Source: Daedaleopsis sinensis
Lineage: Eukaryota > Basidiomycota > Agaricomycetes > Polyporales > Polyporaceae
Direction of reading: 5' to 3'
Length of the DNA: 64,000 bases
Assembly: GCA_033807695.1 (NCBI GenBank)
Contig: CM066302.1
Location: 2,108,001-2,172,000, forward strand
Shown piece after piece: positions 27,068 to 49,031 of the stretch. The translations under genes were made by a program, and so were the position numbers. The notes under the pieces are model-generated. The model searched no databases, had not been told where the DNA came from, and saw only the letters and a list, made by a program, of their open reading frames with translations. The stretch's first letter is position 1. Each line of letters begins with the position of its first letter.

Positions 27068-28800
27068 TCATGATCGCGCACCGTGACTGAGCACAGGCAC
27101 GGACTCCTTCAGGCCTGTCGCGAACGGATCGCTCGAAAACGTCGGCCGCTCCTCCTCGGACTCGTGCTCGGCGCCAGCGGCGTCGGCATACGCGTGCTCT
27201 TCGCTGTACGCAACAGTGGCACCCAGGTTGCCGACGAGCCTGCAGGAGAAGCTCGGATTGCGCACGAGGCACGCGCGCGACTCGGAGCACGGCAGCGGCA
27301 GGCAGTCCGAGTTTCCGAGACACTCGTCTTCGGCGTCGTCCGCGTAGTAGATCTCGCGGAGGGCAAGGATGAAGCGGGAGAGGATGATGGTGGTGAAGCT
27401 GGGTGGCATGCATTGTGAGGGGGAGGGGGTGTGGGTCGTGCGTGCGTCAGCGTTCGACCCGCCGCTCCGTGGGAGTAGATTGGCTGATGCTTACACGGGA
27501 GAGAACGCTGCCCAGAACGCAATGCCAATGACTCCTGCGACTTGGTTTTCCAGAACCGAGAAGGGTGTTAGCGTGTATAGTAGGTTAACGACTGCGTTGG
27601 ACAGGCAGAGTCTTCAGGAAGCAAACACATAAGCGTTTCGTCAAGAGTGTGTGCGGAAGGGCGGGTGCTCACATGAAATACATAGTCCCTGGACGCAGTC
27701 AACCGGTCAGTCGCACGTCACCAATGCTACTGTATATATGTTAAACTCACCGTCGCGGAGGAGAAAGTCTTGGATTGCGGTATGACATGTATACACGTTC
27801 ACGAGTTCCCTCTTAACCCTGAATGTCCTGCACCACGTCAATATGGCGAAAGCGCAATTCGCACCAACGGTGGTGGCAATTGCGACGAGATGCACTGCAT
27901 GAGCATGAGCTAGACTGACGTAATGACGCGGCGAGAGACCTCGTACATCTGAGGGGAAGGTCAGGGCATATCGTGAAGGAGCTGTTTGTGCACTCACGGA
28001 GTCTGCAGAGCTGTTGCCCAGGAGGTAGTAGTCTCTGTGCACTGCCCGAGGTTCAGCCATTCATCGAAGACAGTACTCGAGCCGACGTTTTGGAGCTGCA
28101 ACTCGTCTTAGTATATATTTTTGTGTGTGGCTGCAGGTAATCACTCACGATGCGAAGAGCAGGATCTACGAGCCCCAACACTGCAACTACGAGGAACGGG
28201 GCCCACTTCCTATCCCATATGACATACACCCGCAGCGCGAGCATCACTATGCGATTGATCCCACGTCAGTATCTCTTCGTTATATCACTGAACGACTCTC
28301 ACATGTAGCCGCGGTCTCAGATACGATTGTCAATGTGTCGGAAGAGCGCTCCAGGAGCTTGCAGACCTGTAGGAGCAGCCGAGAAAATGAGTCCCGGTCA
28401 GTGTTGACACTCGAGGAGGGGTAGCTCACCTGGGTACCAGTAGTCTCGCTCCATGGCTGGATCTCGAAGATGAGGATGATACGGTTAAGGAGTGTGGAAT
28501 ATCGGAGGAGCAGGAATATGACAACAGCCCCAGAGAACTTCCGCCGCCATACCCGCTGAATTTCGGAGAAGAAAGTCAACGTGAAGTCGTAGAGTAGCAG
28601 TACTTGCGTGAGAGGCTCGATCAGCGTAGCATATGATGGCTTGAGACGACCGAGCTCACCTGCGGACGCGACAGAGAAATACATGATGATCATCCTGTTG
28701 CAAGATTAAGGAAGCCATATACACAGGAGAGGTAAGAGACGTACGAAACAAGGTATTCCTCCCGGGTCGCTGGTAAGGCCGCTGAGTCCTTTCCGGACAT
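27068..28800 (-). CDS. DUF6533-like seven-helix membrane protein A
   Basis: Start ATG at 28798-28800, stop at 27068-27070, about ten exons. After a short first exon come LLLYDFTLTF and the basic loop EIQRVWRRKFSG, the signature of the DUF6533 N-terminal region, then RYSTLLNR, RVYVIWDR after helix 3, a TWCRTF block and a final helix containing TTIILSRFILALR. The tail keeps the motifs VGNLGA and DPF-x-x-GL shared with paralogs B and E. The tail also holds four extra Cys residues. In the middle, two introns flank a possible 2-nt exon at 27947-27948. Here a single-intron alternative (acceptor after TACGTCAG) also preserves frame and would insert a short Leu/Ala/His-rich stretch. Role unknown; such proteins are abundant in polypores. 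Confidence 0.75.
27947..27948 (-). other. candidate 2-nt exon AT in gene A
   Basis: Flanked by CTCAG and GTACGA, between introns of 49 and 52 bp. It would complete codons CCA and TTG (Pro-Leu). It is not strictly required here because another acceptor also keeps frame. Confidence 0.45.
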
Positions 28801-37368: not shown

Positions 37369-39310
37369 ATGTCACAAGAGGTTGATGGCTATTCGAGATT
37401 GTGCGTGCACGCTATTTGCTGTCTGCGTATGCTGATCCAGCGGCCAATACTTCTTCCTTTAGAATAGTTGAGAACTATTGCATTGTCGCCACAACGGGTA
37501 CGTGGCACACGTTCGACATCAAAGTCCATTAAGCATGCATTGAGCCTACGACCTCCATACAGCCCTGCTGTGGTTTGATTTCAGCTTAACGTTCACAACT
37601 GAAGTCCGACGCATATGGAGGCGAAAGTTCTCTGGCGCAACCCTCGTATTCCTCTTTATGCGCTACTCCGCACTCTTAGATAGAGTACTGTTCGTCCTCG
37701 AAGTCCTCTTATGGAAATCAAGTGATAGGGTAGGTCTTCGTATTGACTATACTCCAGTCCCCCAGGCTAACCCTGCATCATAGACATGCTACATGATCGA
37801 AAGAGCGGATGATGTTCTCGTTGTACTCAACTATCTCTCGTTTGCAGGTGCGCAGTGATGTTCCCTTCATTTCAACTCTCGCTGCCCCGCTTCCCTTTCG
37901 ACTCATTCACATCTACTATAGCGTTCACAATCCTTCGAGTATATGGTGTCTGGGGACGAGATTGGAAACCGCTTCTCTTTGTGGTGCCTTTGGCACTTGT
38001 CAAGCCCGTCTTATATGCTGTGAGTGTATTGCCGTCTCCCGTCGGGTTTCGTACTGATTATCATGGACATTAGTATGAGAACGTTAGCTATACACCCGCT
38101 CAAGCTGGACCACCCTTCGGATGCGTCCTCAGCTATGATATCTCAGATCATACTCTAGCGACGTGAGTGCTTTCGAATCGTGTCGCTCCGCTGGGTTTCT
38201 TGACTAACACAGAACTACTAGATGTGAGATCCTACTTCTTGGTCTTGGTCTCTGGTAGTCCCGTTGCACCGCTGACAATCGGTTGAGCAGTTTCGGTCAT
38301 CGTGAAAGTCACAACCATCGCAGCAGATGCGATACTCATCGTGCTTACTTGGATTAAAACCTTTGGAATCAACAAAGACTCCTTGAAGCTCGGCATGAAG
38401 ACTCCGCTCGCGACCCTGCTCCTGCGCGACGGTGAGTTTAATTCTCACGCGTGAAGGAAGGCGCAATGTACTCATGCCTGCCATCTGGTTCGGCACAGGC
38501 ACTGCTTACTTCATGTGCGCTCTCTAGCTATTTCTGCGCACAGCGAAGTTGAGCTCACATGCTCTGCAGTATCCTGCTGTTGATTCAGATTGTGACGATC
38601 ATCACCAGCCAAATCGGCTCTGTAAGTTCGTTCCATAGTCAGCCCAACTTCTCCTTCTCACGCGTACATTATTTCCGAACAGTCTCTCACTGTATGGCTC
38701 GTGTGGCCATACTTCGACCAAGTGTACGTCCTGTCGACTCAACGTTTGGCAGCCTGCTGACTCCGCCGCCGACATAGCCTCACAGTGATCTTCCTCTCGC
38801 GCTTCATGCTGGACCTCCGCGGGCTCTACTTCGCCGACCGGCCGGACACACTGCAAGGCTCGTTCTCTATCCCCGGCTTCTCCGACATCCGCTTCACCAC
38901 TTCGATCATCGTGGGCAACCTCGGCGCGCCCCTCTCCGACGCGGATGGCAGCAACAACTCCGAGGTCTCGTCCACCCATTCCGCATCATCTCCGACGCGG
39001 GGCCCTCGCGATGTCGAGGATATCGCGGGCGTCACAGGCGAAAGCGCTGCCCAGGAAGAGAAGTACGGCGCGGAGTGGTACGAGGACGAAAAGCCCGAGT
39101 ATGCGCGGGACCCGTTCAAAGAGGGCATGAGGCCCCCGCTTGCCATTGAGTTTGGGGCGTCGAGGGTGGCGGAGGTCGAACTGCTGGAGATGGTTTCGCC
39201 CATCAGTCCGTCGAGTCTTGCTAGCCCGGTGAGTAGCGTCCGCTTTGTTCGTGCATCTCCGGACGCTGAACGCTGTGTAGGAGTCATCTCAGGGCCCGTC
39301 AACTTTATGA
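37369..39310 (+). CDS. DUF6533-like seven-helix membrane protein B
   Basis: The best-preserved member of the group. Start ATG at 37369; the first exons give SRLIVENYCIVATTALLW, then the DUF6533 loop EVRRIWRRKFSG and MRYSALLDR, RVYGVWGR, PPFGC, LTWIKTF, LLRDG, VWLVWPYF and FLSRFMLDLRG. The tail keeps VGNLGA and DPF-x-x-GM. The stop at 39308-39310 assumes removal of intron 39229-39280; without it the protein runs to 39423 with an unrelated tail. All exons join in phase only if a 2-nt exon (38222-38223) is included between introns 38163-38221 and 38224-38290. Seven helices predicted by eye; role unknown. Confidence 0.8.
38222..38223 (+). other. candidate 2-nt exon AT in gene B
   Basis: Lies in the context ACTAG-AT-GTGAGA. 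The exon before it ends with two bases of a codon (AC) and the exon after it opens with two bases (TT) before the frame of the LTWIKTF helix. Adding AT yields ACA and TTT. Every other acceptor that would fix the phase passes through a TGA at 38284-38286. Confidence 0.65.
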
Positions 39311-39802
39311 TGACTAGAAAGCACTGGTGGCGTGTCAACGACGATTATTTGTGTACGATATGCTACATAGTGGTACCTAGGATACCCCTGTCAAGTCTGT
39401 GCCTCACTCACAGCGCAAAATGAAGCTATACGTCTTCTCTCTATGTTATGAAGACAGAACGTGCGGCTTGGCTACTGAAGACATTTAGAGAAACCTCCCG
39501 TGACTTTCCGACTCCGCGGACCAGTTGTTCGGACCTGTCTCTGCCTGTGCATGCACCAGAGGAATCGACGGATCATCCTCTTCAGGCCACCTCGTCTGAC
39601 CGACTCTAACGTCCGATGAGTGTTCAATCTGACTGGGGACAATCGAGCTAGTTGCTCTGCGTAGGAGAAAGGCGTATCTTCGATTCGGTCGACGGCATTC
39701 ATACATGATTATCTCGAGAGCACATTATCATCGTGATCGTACAGCTTCCAAAAATTTCGCCTCTCGTCGCGCTGCACGTATTCCGTCGTCCACACGAGGC
39801 TC
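39311..39802. other. convergent spacer
   Basis: 492 bp between the 3' ends of gene B and the penta-EF-hand gene. Nothing recognisable. Confidence 0.5.
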
Positions 39803-41480: not shown

Positions 41481-43222
41481 TCACTCATCTCCTTCCGCAA
41501 CATCCTGGCATCTCATGTCGCCCAGCTCATATCCAGGTTCAACATCACACGCTAAACCTGAGTGCGGAAGACAAGTCGTATACCGGGGAACTCGGGGTGA
41601 GTGAGAGTATGGCGATCCTGGGGAGTCGTGGCATCCGACATCCTTTTCGCTCTCGAAGAGAGGAGTGATGAGAGACGTCCTGAAGTCCACAAAGCCGATA
41701 GACATCATGGCCTGTCCATGAGTACCAGCACCAGCCAGGCCGTCCGAGTATTGAATGCCGCGGAGGTTGAGCATCAGACGCGACAAGCAGATCACCGTAA
41801 AGCTGCAGCAATAGTCAGTCACTACGACAAGTCAGAAATATAACATGACAAGCCGTACACCTGGTCGAAGTAGGATACGACGTGCCAAAATGGGAGAGTC
41901 TATCCATTCTAGGCATGAGAGGACGAAGGCACCAAATATGAGTGACACCACTCACATGGCCAAGTTCGTTGCTGATTATCTTCATGATGCCCATGAGCAG
42001 GAGCAGACTACATGTTAGTCGTTTAAGAATGTGAAGTCAAAATAGAACGGTGGAGAGAGCAAGGCGTACGTAAAGTAGATGGTCCCTAATATTGCATATT
42101 AGTAGCCCGCCCCATGCATAGAATTATACACATACTCACCATCGCGCAGAAGCAGAGTCGCAAGTGGTGTTCTTATTCCGAGTTTCGAAGATTCCATGTA
42201 AATACCGTAGGTTCTCACCCAAGTCAGCACAACTAAGAGCGCGTCTGCTGTAGTCGTCGTGACGGTCATCGCAATTGTAACTGGTGGGGTTCCGTCACAT
42301 TGTTAGATTGAGTAAAGACCTCCGACTTCGAGCAGTATGACGATATCTTACATCTAGCAACAGTCAATCCAGCAGAGCCCGAGCTGTGTATGAAGCACTC
42401 ACTTTGCGAAAGTATCGTCAGATATTGCGTAAATGATACCGCATCCGTAGGGAGGCCCGGTTTGAAGAGCTATATAGTGCGCGCTCTGGACCTGTCACGG
42501 CTGATGTTCAGGATACCCAAGTATGAGTATGGGAGCATTCGAAGCTCACAATGTATAGAATCGGCTTCACGAGTGTCAAAGGTACAATTGCGACAAGGGG
42601 CGTCCATGCTCGATCCCATACTCCATATACACGGAGGGACGTGAAAGCTAAGGGTTGATACAAGACGCAGCGTGAGTTACGGTTAATTAGTTGGTCAAGA
42701 GATAAATTTAACACACCTGCAAAAGTCAAGTAGTTGATGATCACCAGAATGTCATCCGTGTGGTAGATTGCTGAGCAAACCTGATAAAAGAGCTATAAGT
42801 ACATCATCATAGTCGTATCGCGCGGAGTTGGATGGTGACCTTATCGTTCGAGTTCCACAGGAAGATAACGAGTATGAAAAATACTCTGTCCGCCAACGCA
42901 CTGTAACGCATCAAGAGAATTACGAAGGTCGCCCCGGTTAGCTTGCGTTTCCATATGCATTGAACTTCAGCCGTGAAAGTTAAGGCGAAGTCGAAGAAGA
43001 GCCATGCTGGTTGTAGTGTTGGTGTTGGTGTTCCCGAGTCGTGAGTACTAGTGCTAGATACAGAGTTGAGGACTATACCTGTTGATGCGACAATGCAGTA
43101 GTTCTCAACAAGCCTAAGGTGGACTATATGTCAGCATCACGGAGGTGAGCGGATCTAAACTTTGCTACTCACAACCTCGGAAAATCGTCTATGATATCTT
43201 GCGCCGCGTCGCTCGACGACAT
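41481..43222 (-). CDS. DUF6533-like seven-helix membrane protein C
   Basis: Start ATG at 43220-43222, stop at 41481. The exons give LVENYCIVAST, FFDFALTFTAEVQCIWKRKLTG, MRYSALADR, a HTDDILVIINYLTF helix, RVYGVWDR, GPPYGC, LTWVRTY, LLLRDG and CLSRLMLNLRG, all matching gene B. The tail is shorter and lacks the VGNLGA and DPF motifs. Exons join in phase only with a 2-nt exon at 42352-42353, between introns of 49 and 71 bp. All other AG dinucleotides in the downstream intron give the same wrong phase. Seven helices predicted by eye; function unknown. Confidence 0.75.
42352..42353 (-). other. candidate 2-nt exon AT in gene C
   Basis: Context GCTAG-AT-GTAAGA on the minus strand. It completes codons AAA and TTT (Lys-Phe), matching Thr-Phe at the same place in gene B. 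Confidence 0.65.
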
Positions 43223-44618: not shown

Positions 44619-46225
44619 TTACACGTAAGACTGCCTAGTCGCGGCCCCATATATATCTCTAGTCGGACCCGACGGTACTTGAGGGGAGCCTGGTCTTCCG
44701 TCCATAGGGAGAGTAGATTTGTATCCGATGAAGACAGGAGTCGCAATCATTGACCCTTCCGAAGTCTCGGAAGGTGTGCCCAGCCCACGTGCGTCGAGCA
44801 TGAAGCGTGAGATGATAATGATGTTCAAGCTGTGTTTGTTTGAACAAGGTTACCTGCAGTCGACGAAATGGACAAAGGGACATACATCTCGTAGAAATAG
44901 GGCCAGGCTAGCCATATTGTAGCTCTCTGTGTAGCAATATTGTCACAACGCAAAACTCGTTGGAGAAGCCGAACTAGTAGTCGATACGTACGTTTTCCTG
45001 TCAAACATCAGTCAGAAAATACGTAACGTATAGTAAGGTGCTCGCCATACGTTCGAAGCATAAAACTTGGCAAAGGCATTGAAGACGATGATTCTGAGCA
45101 TGTGCGTGAGGTTTGGGATTCGATCTTCATCCTCGAGCAACATACATCAGAAACACGGCCCCTAACATGAAGTTATTGGTGTCACTACAACCGAACCGTG
45201 GCATGATAAGGGGATATACAATCACCATCGCGGACCAGCAGGTTGACGAGCGGGGTTCGCATTTGACATTGCCGAGCAAGCCTCGAAATCGCCAGAGCTT
45301 TGTATGCGGTGACCGCAATCAGGACTGCATGTGAAACAAGCATTGTTGCGGACGCGATAATTGAGTCTAACGATAATTCAGAAGAGCTGTTATTCACTTA
45401 AGACAACGTCTTACAGCTTTACGACAGAATTTTGTTTAGCGATACAGCGAAGTTTATGCTTGGTGACTAACTTACAGGTTGAGAGTTTTCTCCGATAAAG
45501 TATATTCCCAGCCGCACCCGAACAAATATCTGACTTCGACAGCCTTGTACTGCGCTGTCTCTATCTGCGACATGTGGAGAATCAATATTCAATCTCGCAG
45601 CGGTGACGGAACAAAATTAATGAAACTTGATCTCACCGCATATAAAACTGGCCGGACGAGGATAAGAGGAACAACAATGAGTGTATACGCCCAGCATCCC
45701 GCGGAGATGCCATATATGCGGATAGTCACAACTATGCCGGTCGCGAGAAGGTTGATGATATATAGCACATCATTGAAGTGCGTTAAGATGCTGCATCTCT
45801 ATAGGATAGTAAGCGTGGAGCGACAGGGTGCCCGCTCGCGTTGAAGCACTCACCTGGTTGTCGAGCGTTGACAGAAGAATTGCCAGGACAAATGTCACTC
45901 GCGCACATAGGGCGCTGTACCTCATAACGAGGTATGCGATTGTGACCCATGTGGCATCCCGGCGCCATATTCGTTCGACCTCGGCGGTGAGCGTCAGACC
46001 AAAATCGTACCAGAGAAGTGCTGTGTGTCGTCACATATTGCGGTGAGGATTTCCCAGACCGGTCATGAGGGTATGAACCAACCTGACGTAGAGAAAACAC
46101 AATAGTTGATGACTGCTCTTGAAGTGTCCGGAAATGAGCATTGGAGGGATGTCATGAGTTAACAAGACAAACCTCCTTGACGACTCGGATTCAAGATTGG
46201 GATCATGATGGTATGAGTCCGACAT
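44619..46225 (-). CDS. DUF6533-like seven-helix membrane protein D
   Basis: Start ATG at 46223-46225 and stop at 44619. Visible blocks are RAVINYCVFSTSALLWYDFGLTLTAE (read across two introns), RIWRRDATW, MRYSALCAR, IRIYGIS, GCGWEY, LLVRDG, WLAWPYFYE and IISRFMLDARG. It has lost the intron before the third helix that B and C keep. Unlike its paralogs it joins exon IETAQYK to exon SSELSLDS by one ordinary 89-bp intron (45475-45387), so it does not need a 2-nt exon. The tail is short and lacks the VGNLGA and DPF motifs. It is AT-richer than genes A and B. Probably functional; role unknown. Confidence 0.7.
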
Positions 46226-47394: not shown

Positions 47395-49031
47395 CTATAC
47401 GGGCCGACCGACGGCTCGACGCTCGTACACATTTTTGTGACAATGTGCTTCGGGGATAGCAAGCGAAGCCTTCAAGCCCAACTTAAACGGATCTCTCGAG
47501 AACTCCGGTACTTCGTCGTCTTCGTCCCATCCCTGGCGCATTCCATGACGGCCGGCAGAGTGGGAGCGGACAGTGGCTCCAAGGTTGCCGATGACGTTCG
47601 CAGTTTTGATGGGGACAGGGAAGACGAGCTCGGATGTCGTTGGTTCGAAATCGTCCGACTCTTCGAAGAGAAGGAGACGAAGGTCGAGGATGAACCTTGA
47701 GAGTATCATGGCGGTGAATCTGCATACCCACTGACTGAGCGCGAGAGCGGGAAGCCTTAAGAGGTGCGCACTCACATTTCGCAGAAGTACGGCCAGATGA
47801 CGAATACTGCGTTTGTCTATGATCTCGATATTTAGCATTGGGAATGGCCATTCAAATATTCATGACTCGATTGGCTTACACCGCTCTGTACAAGCTCATC
47901 AACGTATCTCTCGAGGTACAAGGATAGAGAGACCTACTACTGAGCTTGATAGAACTTGCATGACGAGATTGAAGAGCATGACACTAGGGAAGTGTCAGTA
48001 TATCTGTCAACTGCGACGCCGAAGAGGCCATACAGGAAATACAGTGTTCCTGCGGAAGTCGTTCATTATCAGCAGCGCACAGCATGCTAGACATTCATAC
48101 CCACCATTCCGTACCAGCACGTACGCGATAGGGACATTCATGCCAGACTGCAGCGACGCTCGCACTGCAGAAAAGGTCTTCCACCAGGTCAAGAGAAGAA
48201 CAATGCTGTTGGCAGCGATCGACGCTCCCAGGGATGCGTATCTCACTGAATGATCGACCTTAGGATCATAACACAAGGCATTCAAGTATACGCACATCTA
48301 CGAGTCGGGAAGGTGAACAACACAGATCTGATCTCCGGAGAACGGTACACTCACTGGAGCGATGTTGAATCTGAGAATTTGTACTGATATCGACATCCGA
48401 TAGGTGACGGGTCCTGCACAGGCTCGAACATTGTAGTCTCCACCTGTAACTATATCAGCAGCAGACCGGGACTTTCAAAGATATGCGGTACTCACGACGA
48501 GCACAATTGGGTTTACCATAGATAGGAGTAGTACCACAACAAGTGCTTTCACGTTCAGCGCAGTGACCGCATATACTCGTAGTGCTGTCAGCGCTGCGAC
48601 GGCGAAGTAATTCACATTGTATAGCACGTCGTCGACATGCAGTACGCTGCCACACATCTAGAAGATCCGTGAGTGCCTGTGCCTTGGAGAGACTGCCGCC
48701 GAAACACACCTTGTCATCTGTGGTCCACAACGCCTCCGACAAGATAACGACGCGCTCAATCAGGAGCGTGTAGCGAATACCGACATAGACGAGGGTGGCG
48801 CCGGACAGCCTGCGCTGCCAGATACCCTGCACTTCGGCAGGGAAAGTGATAGCGAAATCGAACCACATCATCGCTGTTGGACAGATTAGTATCTTGTGAC
48901 ATCCTTCTGACATGAACAGCCTTACCGGCGGATGCCACGAGACAGTAGTTTTCTACCAACCTGCATAATGCTTGTCGTAAGCAGACTACTTAACAATGAA
49001 AGATGTTGCGATCTCACCTGCTGTCCGCCAT
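47395..49031 (-). CDS. DUF6533-like seven-helix membrane protein E
   Basis: Start ATG at 49029-49031 in a 14-nt first exon (MADSR), stop at 47395. Blocks are LVENYCLVASAAMMWFDFAITF (across an intron), EVQGIWQRRLSG, IRYTLLIER, ALRVYAVT, PIGCRYQY, LLTWWKTF, LVRNG, VIWPYFCE and MILSRFILDLR. The tail holds IGNLGA and FSRDPF-x-x-GL, as in genes A and B. The intron before helix 3 is lost, as in D. A 2-nt exon at 48296-48297 is needed to join the GCRYQYKF exon to the exon encoding helix 5. In the region near 47.85 kb the acceptor after GATCATAG is needed to keep frame. Function unknown. Confidence 0.75.
48296..48297 (-). other. candidate 2-nt exon AT in gene E
   Basis: Context CGTAG-AT-GTGCGT on the minus strand. 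It completes codons CAA and TTG (Gln-Leu). None of the other AG dinucleotides in the interval gives the needed phase. Confidence 0.65.

Follow-up and report, generated by a model that had tools for sequence, protein, structure and literature searches.

A probable 2-nt exon recurring among the DUF6533 membrane-protein genes of Daedaleopsis sinensis

The interval in gene B and its counterparts in neighbouring genes

When two neighbouring exons of a DUF6533 gene of Daedaleopsis sinensis are joined directly the reading frame is lost, which raises the question of what the interval between them contributes to the mature transcript. The window, i.e., the whole 64,000-nt stretch of DNA analysed, contains five such genes, designated A to E. 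Gene B (37369..39312, plus strand), encoding a DUF6533 (PF20151) membrane protein, comprises 12 exons and 424 aa in a hand-made model. Against the PF20151 model it scored 46.3 bits with a cut-off of 24.1, which places the product in the DUF6533 family.

The upstream exon of gene B (38074..38162, plus strand) encodes a conserved Gly-Cys and ends with the letters ...GCGAC at 38162, of which the last two (AC) would start a Thr codon. Putative intron 1 (38163..38221, 59 nt, same strand) reads GTGAGT...CTAAC...TAG and putative intron 2 (38224..38290, 67 nt) GTGAGA...CTGAC...CAG, the internal pentamers of both being branch-like. Between them stand two bases, AT (38222..38223), predicted to provide the third base of the Thr codon and the first base of a Phe codon. 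The downstream helix exon (38291..38431, plus strand) opens with the two bases TT, followed by TCG GTC. Both introns are similar in size to the other introns of gene B, which span 54–74 nt in the hand model. Omission of AT shifts the frame when the outer exons are joined. An 11-nt middle exon, starting after an AG nine bases upstream, likewise keeps the frame of gene B and ranked second in the frame-and-profile scoring described below (48.7 vs. 53.9); its AG lies only ~4 bases past the branch-like A of CTAAC and its added residues reduce the profile score. The exon that comes directly after the helix exon is itself short, having 16 nt (GCACTGCTTACTTCAT, window 38499-38514); a short ...YF stretch resembling it was seen by eye in two other loci of the family, L041 and L062.

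The same arrangement, AG-AT-GT, was found in three further genes of the window, all on the minus strand. In gene A the candidate exon AT occupies 27947..27948 between introns 27997-27949 (49 nt) and 27946-27895 (52 nt), with GTACGA as the second donor. In gene C it occupies 42352..42353, between introns 42402-42354 (49 nt) and 42351-42281 (71 nt), and the second donor is GTAAGA, while in gene E it lies at 48296..48297, between introns 48354-48298 (57 nt) and 48295-48246 (50 nt), with the second donor GTGCGT. The introns flanking AT in genes A, B, C, and E thus have 49–71 nt. These sites had been proposed in an earlier note on this DNA, and inspection of the sequence with translation in three frames confirmed them together with their coordinates. 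The frame argument of that note also held in all four genes: the upstream exon leaves two bases at its end, the downstream exon opens with two bases, a direct join of the outer exons breaks the frame, and AT restores it. The junction residues Pro-Leu (A), Thr-Phe (B), Lys-Phe (C), and Gln-Leu (E) were reproduced.

Gene D, which the earlier note had presented as a natural control joined directly by one intron, did not retain this role. Its own AG-CT-GT, with a probable 2-nt exon CT at 45415..45416 (minus strand) between introns 45475-45417 (59 nt) and 45414-45367 (48 nt), obtained the top score of 18.9 in the frame-and-profile parser, the runner-up reaching 11.8. The 89-nt single intron is in frame as well, and on splice signals only the two readings are close (4.0 for the 2-nt exon vs. 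2.7 in the same scoring). Gene D is probably best regarded as ambiguous and as no clean control for the 2-nt exon; because the 89-nt reading is also in frame and nearly equal on splice signals, this gene decides nothing.

Splice-site parsing across the gene family

Matches to PF20151 were found in at least 138 places of the D. sinensis genome (51.6 Mb, 24 contigs). Dense DUF6533 arrays were noticed on contig C10 (~0.57–1.08 Mb) and contig C5 (~0.49–1.2 Mb). Of the 133 matches lying beyond the window, 110 were combined with the five window genes, giving 115 loci; the downstream helix exon was recognisable in 99 of them (16 were without it), in 95 at E below 0.01. Upstream anchoring by a simple motif missed many loci and was replaced by other anchoring. 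Among the 95 loci, 77 were anchored upstream for the frame-blind parse (18 were not), and 69 of the 77 gave a two-intron parse, eight giving none. From the window only genes B, C, and E entered this count, gene A being unanchored and gene D lacking a two-intron parse. Two loci on contig C11, L093 and L094 (1766659 and 1776247), lie ~9.6 kb apart, have identical junction peptides, and probably represent a recent copy.

The frame-blind parser used donor, acceptor, and branch-like scores only and selected, among two-intron structures whose middle exon could measure 0–40 nt, the one that scored best. The middle exon was exactly 2 nt long in 60 of the 69 parsable loci, the other lengths being 8 nt (three loci), 11 nt (two loci), and 4, 6, 29, and 36 nt (one locus each). 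With no use made of the frame, 53 of the 60 2-nt parses were in frame, as were all three 8-nt parses and one of the two 11-nt parses. The seven out-of-frame 2-nt loci carry the identical tiny exon in the frame-aware parse; another outer site or upstream frame had been picked in the frame-blind one. Three of the in-frame loci (L005, L107, L109) had an outer donor different from that in the later parse. Dinucleotide-preserving shuffles of the intervals gave a 2-nt exon in 43 of 1380 cases (3.1%), that is, in 43 of the 811 shuffles with any two-intron parse, and 30% of these 811 were in frame. Hence, the recurrence of the 2-nt exon is beyond chance.

The figure of 60/69 was obtained again without the branch term, with a larger kmax (60), and with a longer minimum intron; when GC donors were barred, the 2-nt exon was found in 44 of 57 loci, 37 of them in frame. 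Altogether, the frame-blind 2-nt result holds under five scoring variations. Locus counts are not independent because many paralogs are closely related. When the loci were clustered at 50% identity (28 clusters), 2 nt was the majority state in 20 clusters, in frame in 15 of these; at 40% identity (nine clusters) it was the majority state in five, of which four were in frame.

The same data bear on three other structures. One intron of ~105–145 nt, using other donor or acceptor sites and leaving no tiny exon, would find a precedent in the in-frame 89-nt alternative of gene D, and the best single-intron parse was indeed in frame in six of 75 loci; in the other 69 it broke the frame, as against 53 in-frame parses among the 60 2-nt loci, and the 128-nt interval between the outer exons of gene B is about twice as long as its other introns. 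We consider such a single intron very unlikely. The layout with two adjacent introns and AG and GT almost touching also resembles a stwintron or a zero-length recursive splice site, both of which are removed in two steps with nothing left behind. Each intron here has its own donor and acceptor, no external intron has its donor, branch point, or acceptor interrupted by an internal one, as a stwintron that leaves no exon base would require, and total removal of the interval breaks the frame in the same 69 of 75 frame-blind parses, so that the stwintron or recursive structure appears markedly less probable even than the single intron. The third structure, a longer middle exon (e.g., 8, 11, or 20 nt) delimited by a different AG or GT in most genes, falls between these two in its very low probability. 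It is true that the 11-nt option is second best in gene B and that, in the parse described below, 8 nt was best in seven loci and 11 nt in two; but lengths of 0–40 nt (to 60 in the second run) were allowed and 2 nt still won in 60 of 69 loci, and the longer choice in gene B lowers the profile score.

Coding behaviour, variants, and history of the probable 2-nt exon

The frame-and-profile parser combined splice-site scores with a family profile of the spliced peptide and was applied to the 99 loci. To build the profile, 49 of the 53 frame-blind 2-nt loci that were in frame were used (L005, L095, L107, and L109 were dropped); because it was built from 2-nt loci, this step leans towards 2 nt and is not independent. 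It assigned 2 nt to 80 loci, 8 nt to seven, 11 nt to two, one intron to four, and none to two, with 4, 31, 36, and 40 nt found once each. In the 80 2-nt loci the runner-up structure trailed by a median of 11 nats, which also argues against the single intron; the margin was below 3 nats in four of the 80. The claim of the earlier note that members of a paralog family share a conserved 2-nt exon at a single position is thus favoured, the tiny exon being bordered in 80 of 99 loci by an AG acceptor and a GT or GC donor, each belonging to a complete intron, and being found by the frame-blind parser as well. The length of two bases was conserved and the identity AT, also claimed, was not: AT was present in only 35 of the 80 loci, followed by AC (10), AG (8), GT (6), CT (6), GC (4), TT (4), CG (3), and AA, TC, TA, and CC (one each).

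The upstream exon ended in phase 2 and the next exon opened with two bases in all 80 loci, two other phase pairs having been allowed. The second base completes a Phe codon in 33 loci and a Leu codon in 31 (64/80). In 67 loci the following exon begins with T, and in 64 of these the second base is a T or a C, although hydrophobic residues would equally result from G or A. The second base of the predicted exon hence behaves as a coding base. The introns had median lengths of 60 nt (first; range 47–81 nt) and 59 nt (second; range 48–79 nt) in the 80 loci. A loose branch-like YTNAY preceded the first AG in 74 and the second AG in 72 of them; this motif, which has no shuffle baseline, again speaks for two introns in place of one. 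Spliced peptides of the 53 in-frame loci aligned nearly without gaps across diverged paralogs, with the exceptions of L107 and L109, which were misparsed, and L005 and L095, which have extra residues. GC donors were seen at the second intron in 18 of the 80 loci (AT|GCAAGT, e.g., L036, L049, and L079) and at the first intron in three; L062, which groups with the GC-donor loci, has GTAAGT at the second intron.

These data also touch the last alternative, namely that the two bases are omitted and ribosomal frameshifting restores the frame, or that these are pseudogenes. Nothing specific favours it beyond the existence of some loci with no usable model. The bias of the second base (T or C in 64/67) and the intact adjacent splice sites are at odds with both versions, as is a protein model of Daedaleopsis nitida having the predicted junction, and dozens of diverged paralogs would hardly have kept the frame if every one of them were dead. 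We regard this alternative as the least probable of all, close to negligible.

From the sites, phases, recurrence in 80 of 99 loci, and second-base bias read in the sequence, we infer that both introns are removed and that the exon is kept in the mRNA. Very probably, DUF6533 genes carry a constitutive 2-nt exon between two complete introns of ordinary size with GT/GC...AG borders. The upstream exon would end in phase 2, the two bases would fill the third position of that codon and the first position of the following one (usually Phe or Leu), and the following exon would supply the remaining two bases of the Phe or Leu codon. Since the acceptor and donor are two bases apart, so that U2 and U1 could hardly be bound together, the introns would be expected to be removed stepwise. 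Over the related genes the first donors outscored the second ones (5.05 vs. 4.32, Wilcoxon p 0.0009), which weakly suggests that intron 1 is removed first. Skipping of the exon would shift the frame. The idea of a regulated skipping switch was considered and rejected; the shifted frame meets a stop within 140 nt in only 36 of the 80 loci, which is nothing special.

Relatives deprived of an intron carry the same bases within a larger exon. L018 and the sister pair L025/L106 have no intron 1; their upstream exon takes in the two bases in frame and continues to the same second intron. One intron is truly the best structure for L018 and L025, which, together with the weakly modelled L092 and L097, make up what the single-intron reading can claim in this parse; no inference was drawn from the latter two. 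The top model for L106 was a 40-nt exon ending at the second intron (28.4), the one-intron model scoring 26.7. The 8-nt and 11-nt exons are, like the 2-nt one, 2 modulo 3, and the 11-nt exons of L100 and L104 still have T as their last base and keep the Phe codon, the extra length being three codons at the front.

A tree of 92 of the 99 loci was built, seven loci with low profile scores (three 8-nt and one 2-nt among them) being left out. The 2-nt state was distributed across the whole family; the 8-nt loci (four of seven included) formed one group and the two 11-nt loci another. The tree is unrooted, and the order of gains and losses is not firm because only 66 columns were available. Within the D. 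sinensis genome the exon appears to be old and inherited, with the 8- and 11-nt forms in two groups; in at least two lineages it is joined to the upstream exon, intron 1 being absent. Origin of the arrangement by intron duplication was unsupported, 6-mer sharing being 0.71 for introns of the same gene and 0.74 for those of different genes. In 31 of 80 loci the tiny exon is identical to the final two bases of the upstream exon, with 17.2 (sd 2.8) expected from shuffling, a match which relatedness alone could explain.

Relatives in other species, known systems, and biological meaning

For the gene B protein 82 database relatives were found, of which 60 cover the junction; the named ones we take to be Polyporales. 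Protein model P0001 of D. nitida reads TLATFSVIVK, in exact agreement with the Thr-Phe prediction for the gene B junction. The junction was gapless in 22 of the 60 relatives, a gapless protein not by itself proving a 2-nt exon in that species, and had insertions or deletions in 38, which we read as annotation trouble and which could partly be real. Five models (P0004, P0010, P0015, P0017, and P0058) read Lys/Gln-Tyr-Val at the junction, and we infer that this is the translated unspliced donor of intron 1, GTACGT. Inspection by eye of the 14 relatives of the L062 type showed one that is clearly gapless, D. nitida P0089, which reads NIIF; the remaining 13 show truncation, gaps, or divergence at the junction.

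An AlphaFold2 model of P0001 of D. nitida, a relative and not a window gene, was obtained with 46 of 96 proteins as input. It shows seven long helices with a mean pLDDT of 72, the number of helices reported for SNB1. The junction residue Thr163 is predicted to lie in the first turns of the fifth helix (158-196), so the 2-nt exon would sit where helix five of a membrane protein with seven helices begins. SNB1 of Coprinopsis is described as a DUF6533 protein with seven predicted helices, required for fruiting-body patterning (PMC10949477). Against the at least 138 PF20151 places counted here, four snb1-family members are reported for Coprinopsis, where the term may denote a narrower family.

Exons below 3 nt are not without precedent. 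One-nucleotide exons are documented in the plant genes APC11 and VPS55 (PMC4674806, PMC8831610). As these reports describe them, they share with the present case a coding exon of fewer than 3 nt, two complete introns, necessity for the frame, conservation in homologs, and absence from annotation; intronless APC11 genes also hold the base inside a larger exon. They differ in having 1 nt, in belonging to few-copy plant genes, and in being confirmed by RNA, whereas the exon discussed here has 2 nt, occurs in ~80 fungal paralogs, and is sequence-based. A 1-nt exon of Fusarium CYP621A was published in February 2026 in a paper that claims it as the first such exon in a fungal gene (PMC12940212); the same source cites exons of 2–5 bp for Arabidopsis, Drosophila, and humans. 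CYP621A resembles our case in being fungal, in its discovery through a phase mismatch, in its conservation in orthologs, and in an intronless relative serving as a length marker. By the account given there, it is distinct in its 1-nt length (AG-G-GT in all genes), its confinement to one P450 subfamily of an ascomycete genus, and its support by SRA reads.

With stwintrons (PMC5639578) the DUF6533 genes would share two adjacent fungal introns removed in succession; in stwintrons, as described in that source, a splice signal is split and no exon base remains, whereas here the introns are complete and two coding bases would stay. Vertebrate neural microexons (PMC10250204) and the microexon of Trichoderma Xlr2 (PMC11121469) are likewise very short, with splice sites close together and the order of removal likely forced, and the argument for stepwise removal has been made for short neural microexons too (PMC10250204). 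According to these sources, such microexons are longer than the 2 nt seen here, and regulated. Among the open-access papers listed by the literature searches, most of them judged by title and abstract opening, none was seen to describe a 2-nt exon in DUF6533 genes or in a fungal gene family. As far as these searches show, exons below 3 nt are already known, and what is new is the 2-nt length across a very large basidiomycete paralog family.

Tentatively, the 2-nt exon may be ancestral and family-wide in DUF6533 genes throughout Polyporales, perhaps Agaricomycetes, and hence present in thousands of fungal genes; we hold this extension to be possible rather than probable. If it were true, this would be the largest class of exons below 3 nt known, kept through large paralog radiations, changing in size by whole codons only (2, 8, 11), and skipping would offer an inherent means of switching a gene off by frameshift.

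Exons of one or two bases have been regarded as single-gene curiosities; here about eighty paralogs seemingly carry one in a single genome. These would provide natural replicates for looking at how the spliceosome copes with sites two bases apart, at the order of intron removal, and at the birth and loss of exons. Because 38 of the 60 junction-covering relatives of gene B are gapped there, many public genomes may contain faulty models, at the beginning of a helix, for a large membrane-protein family of mushrooms that shares its domain with the Coprinopsis fruiting-body protein SNB1.
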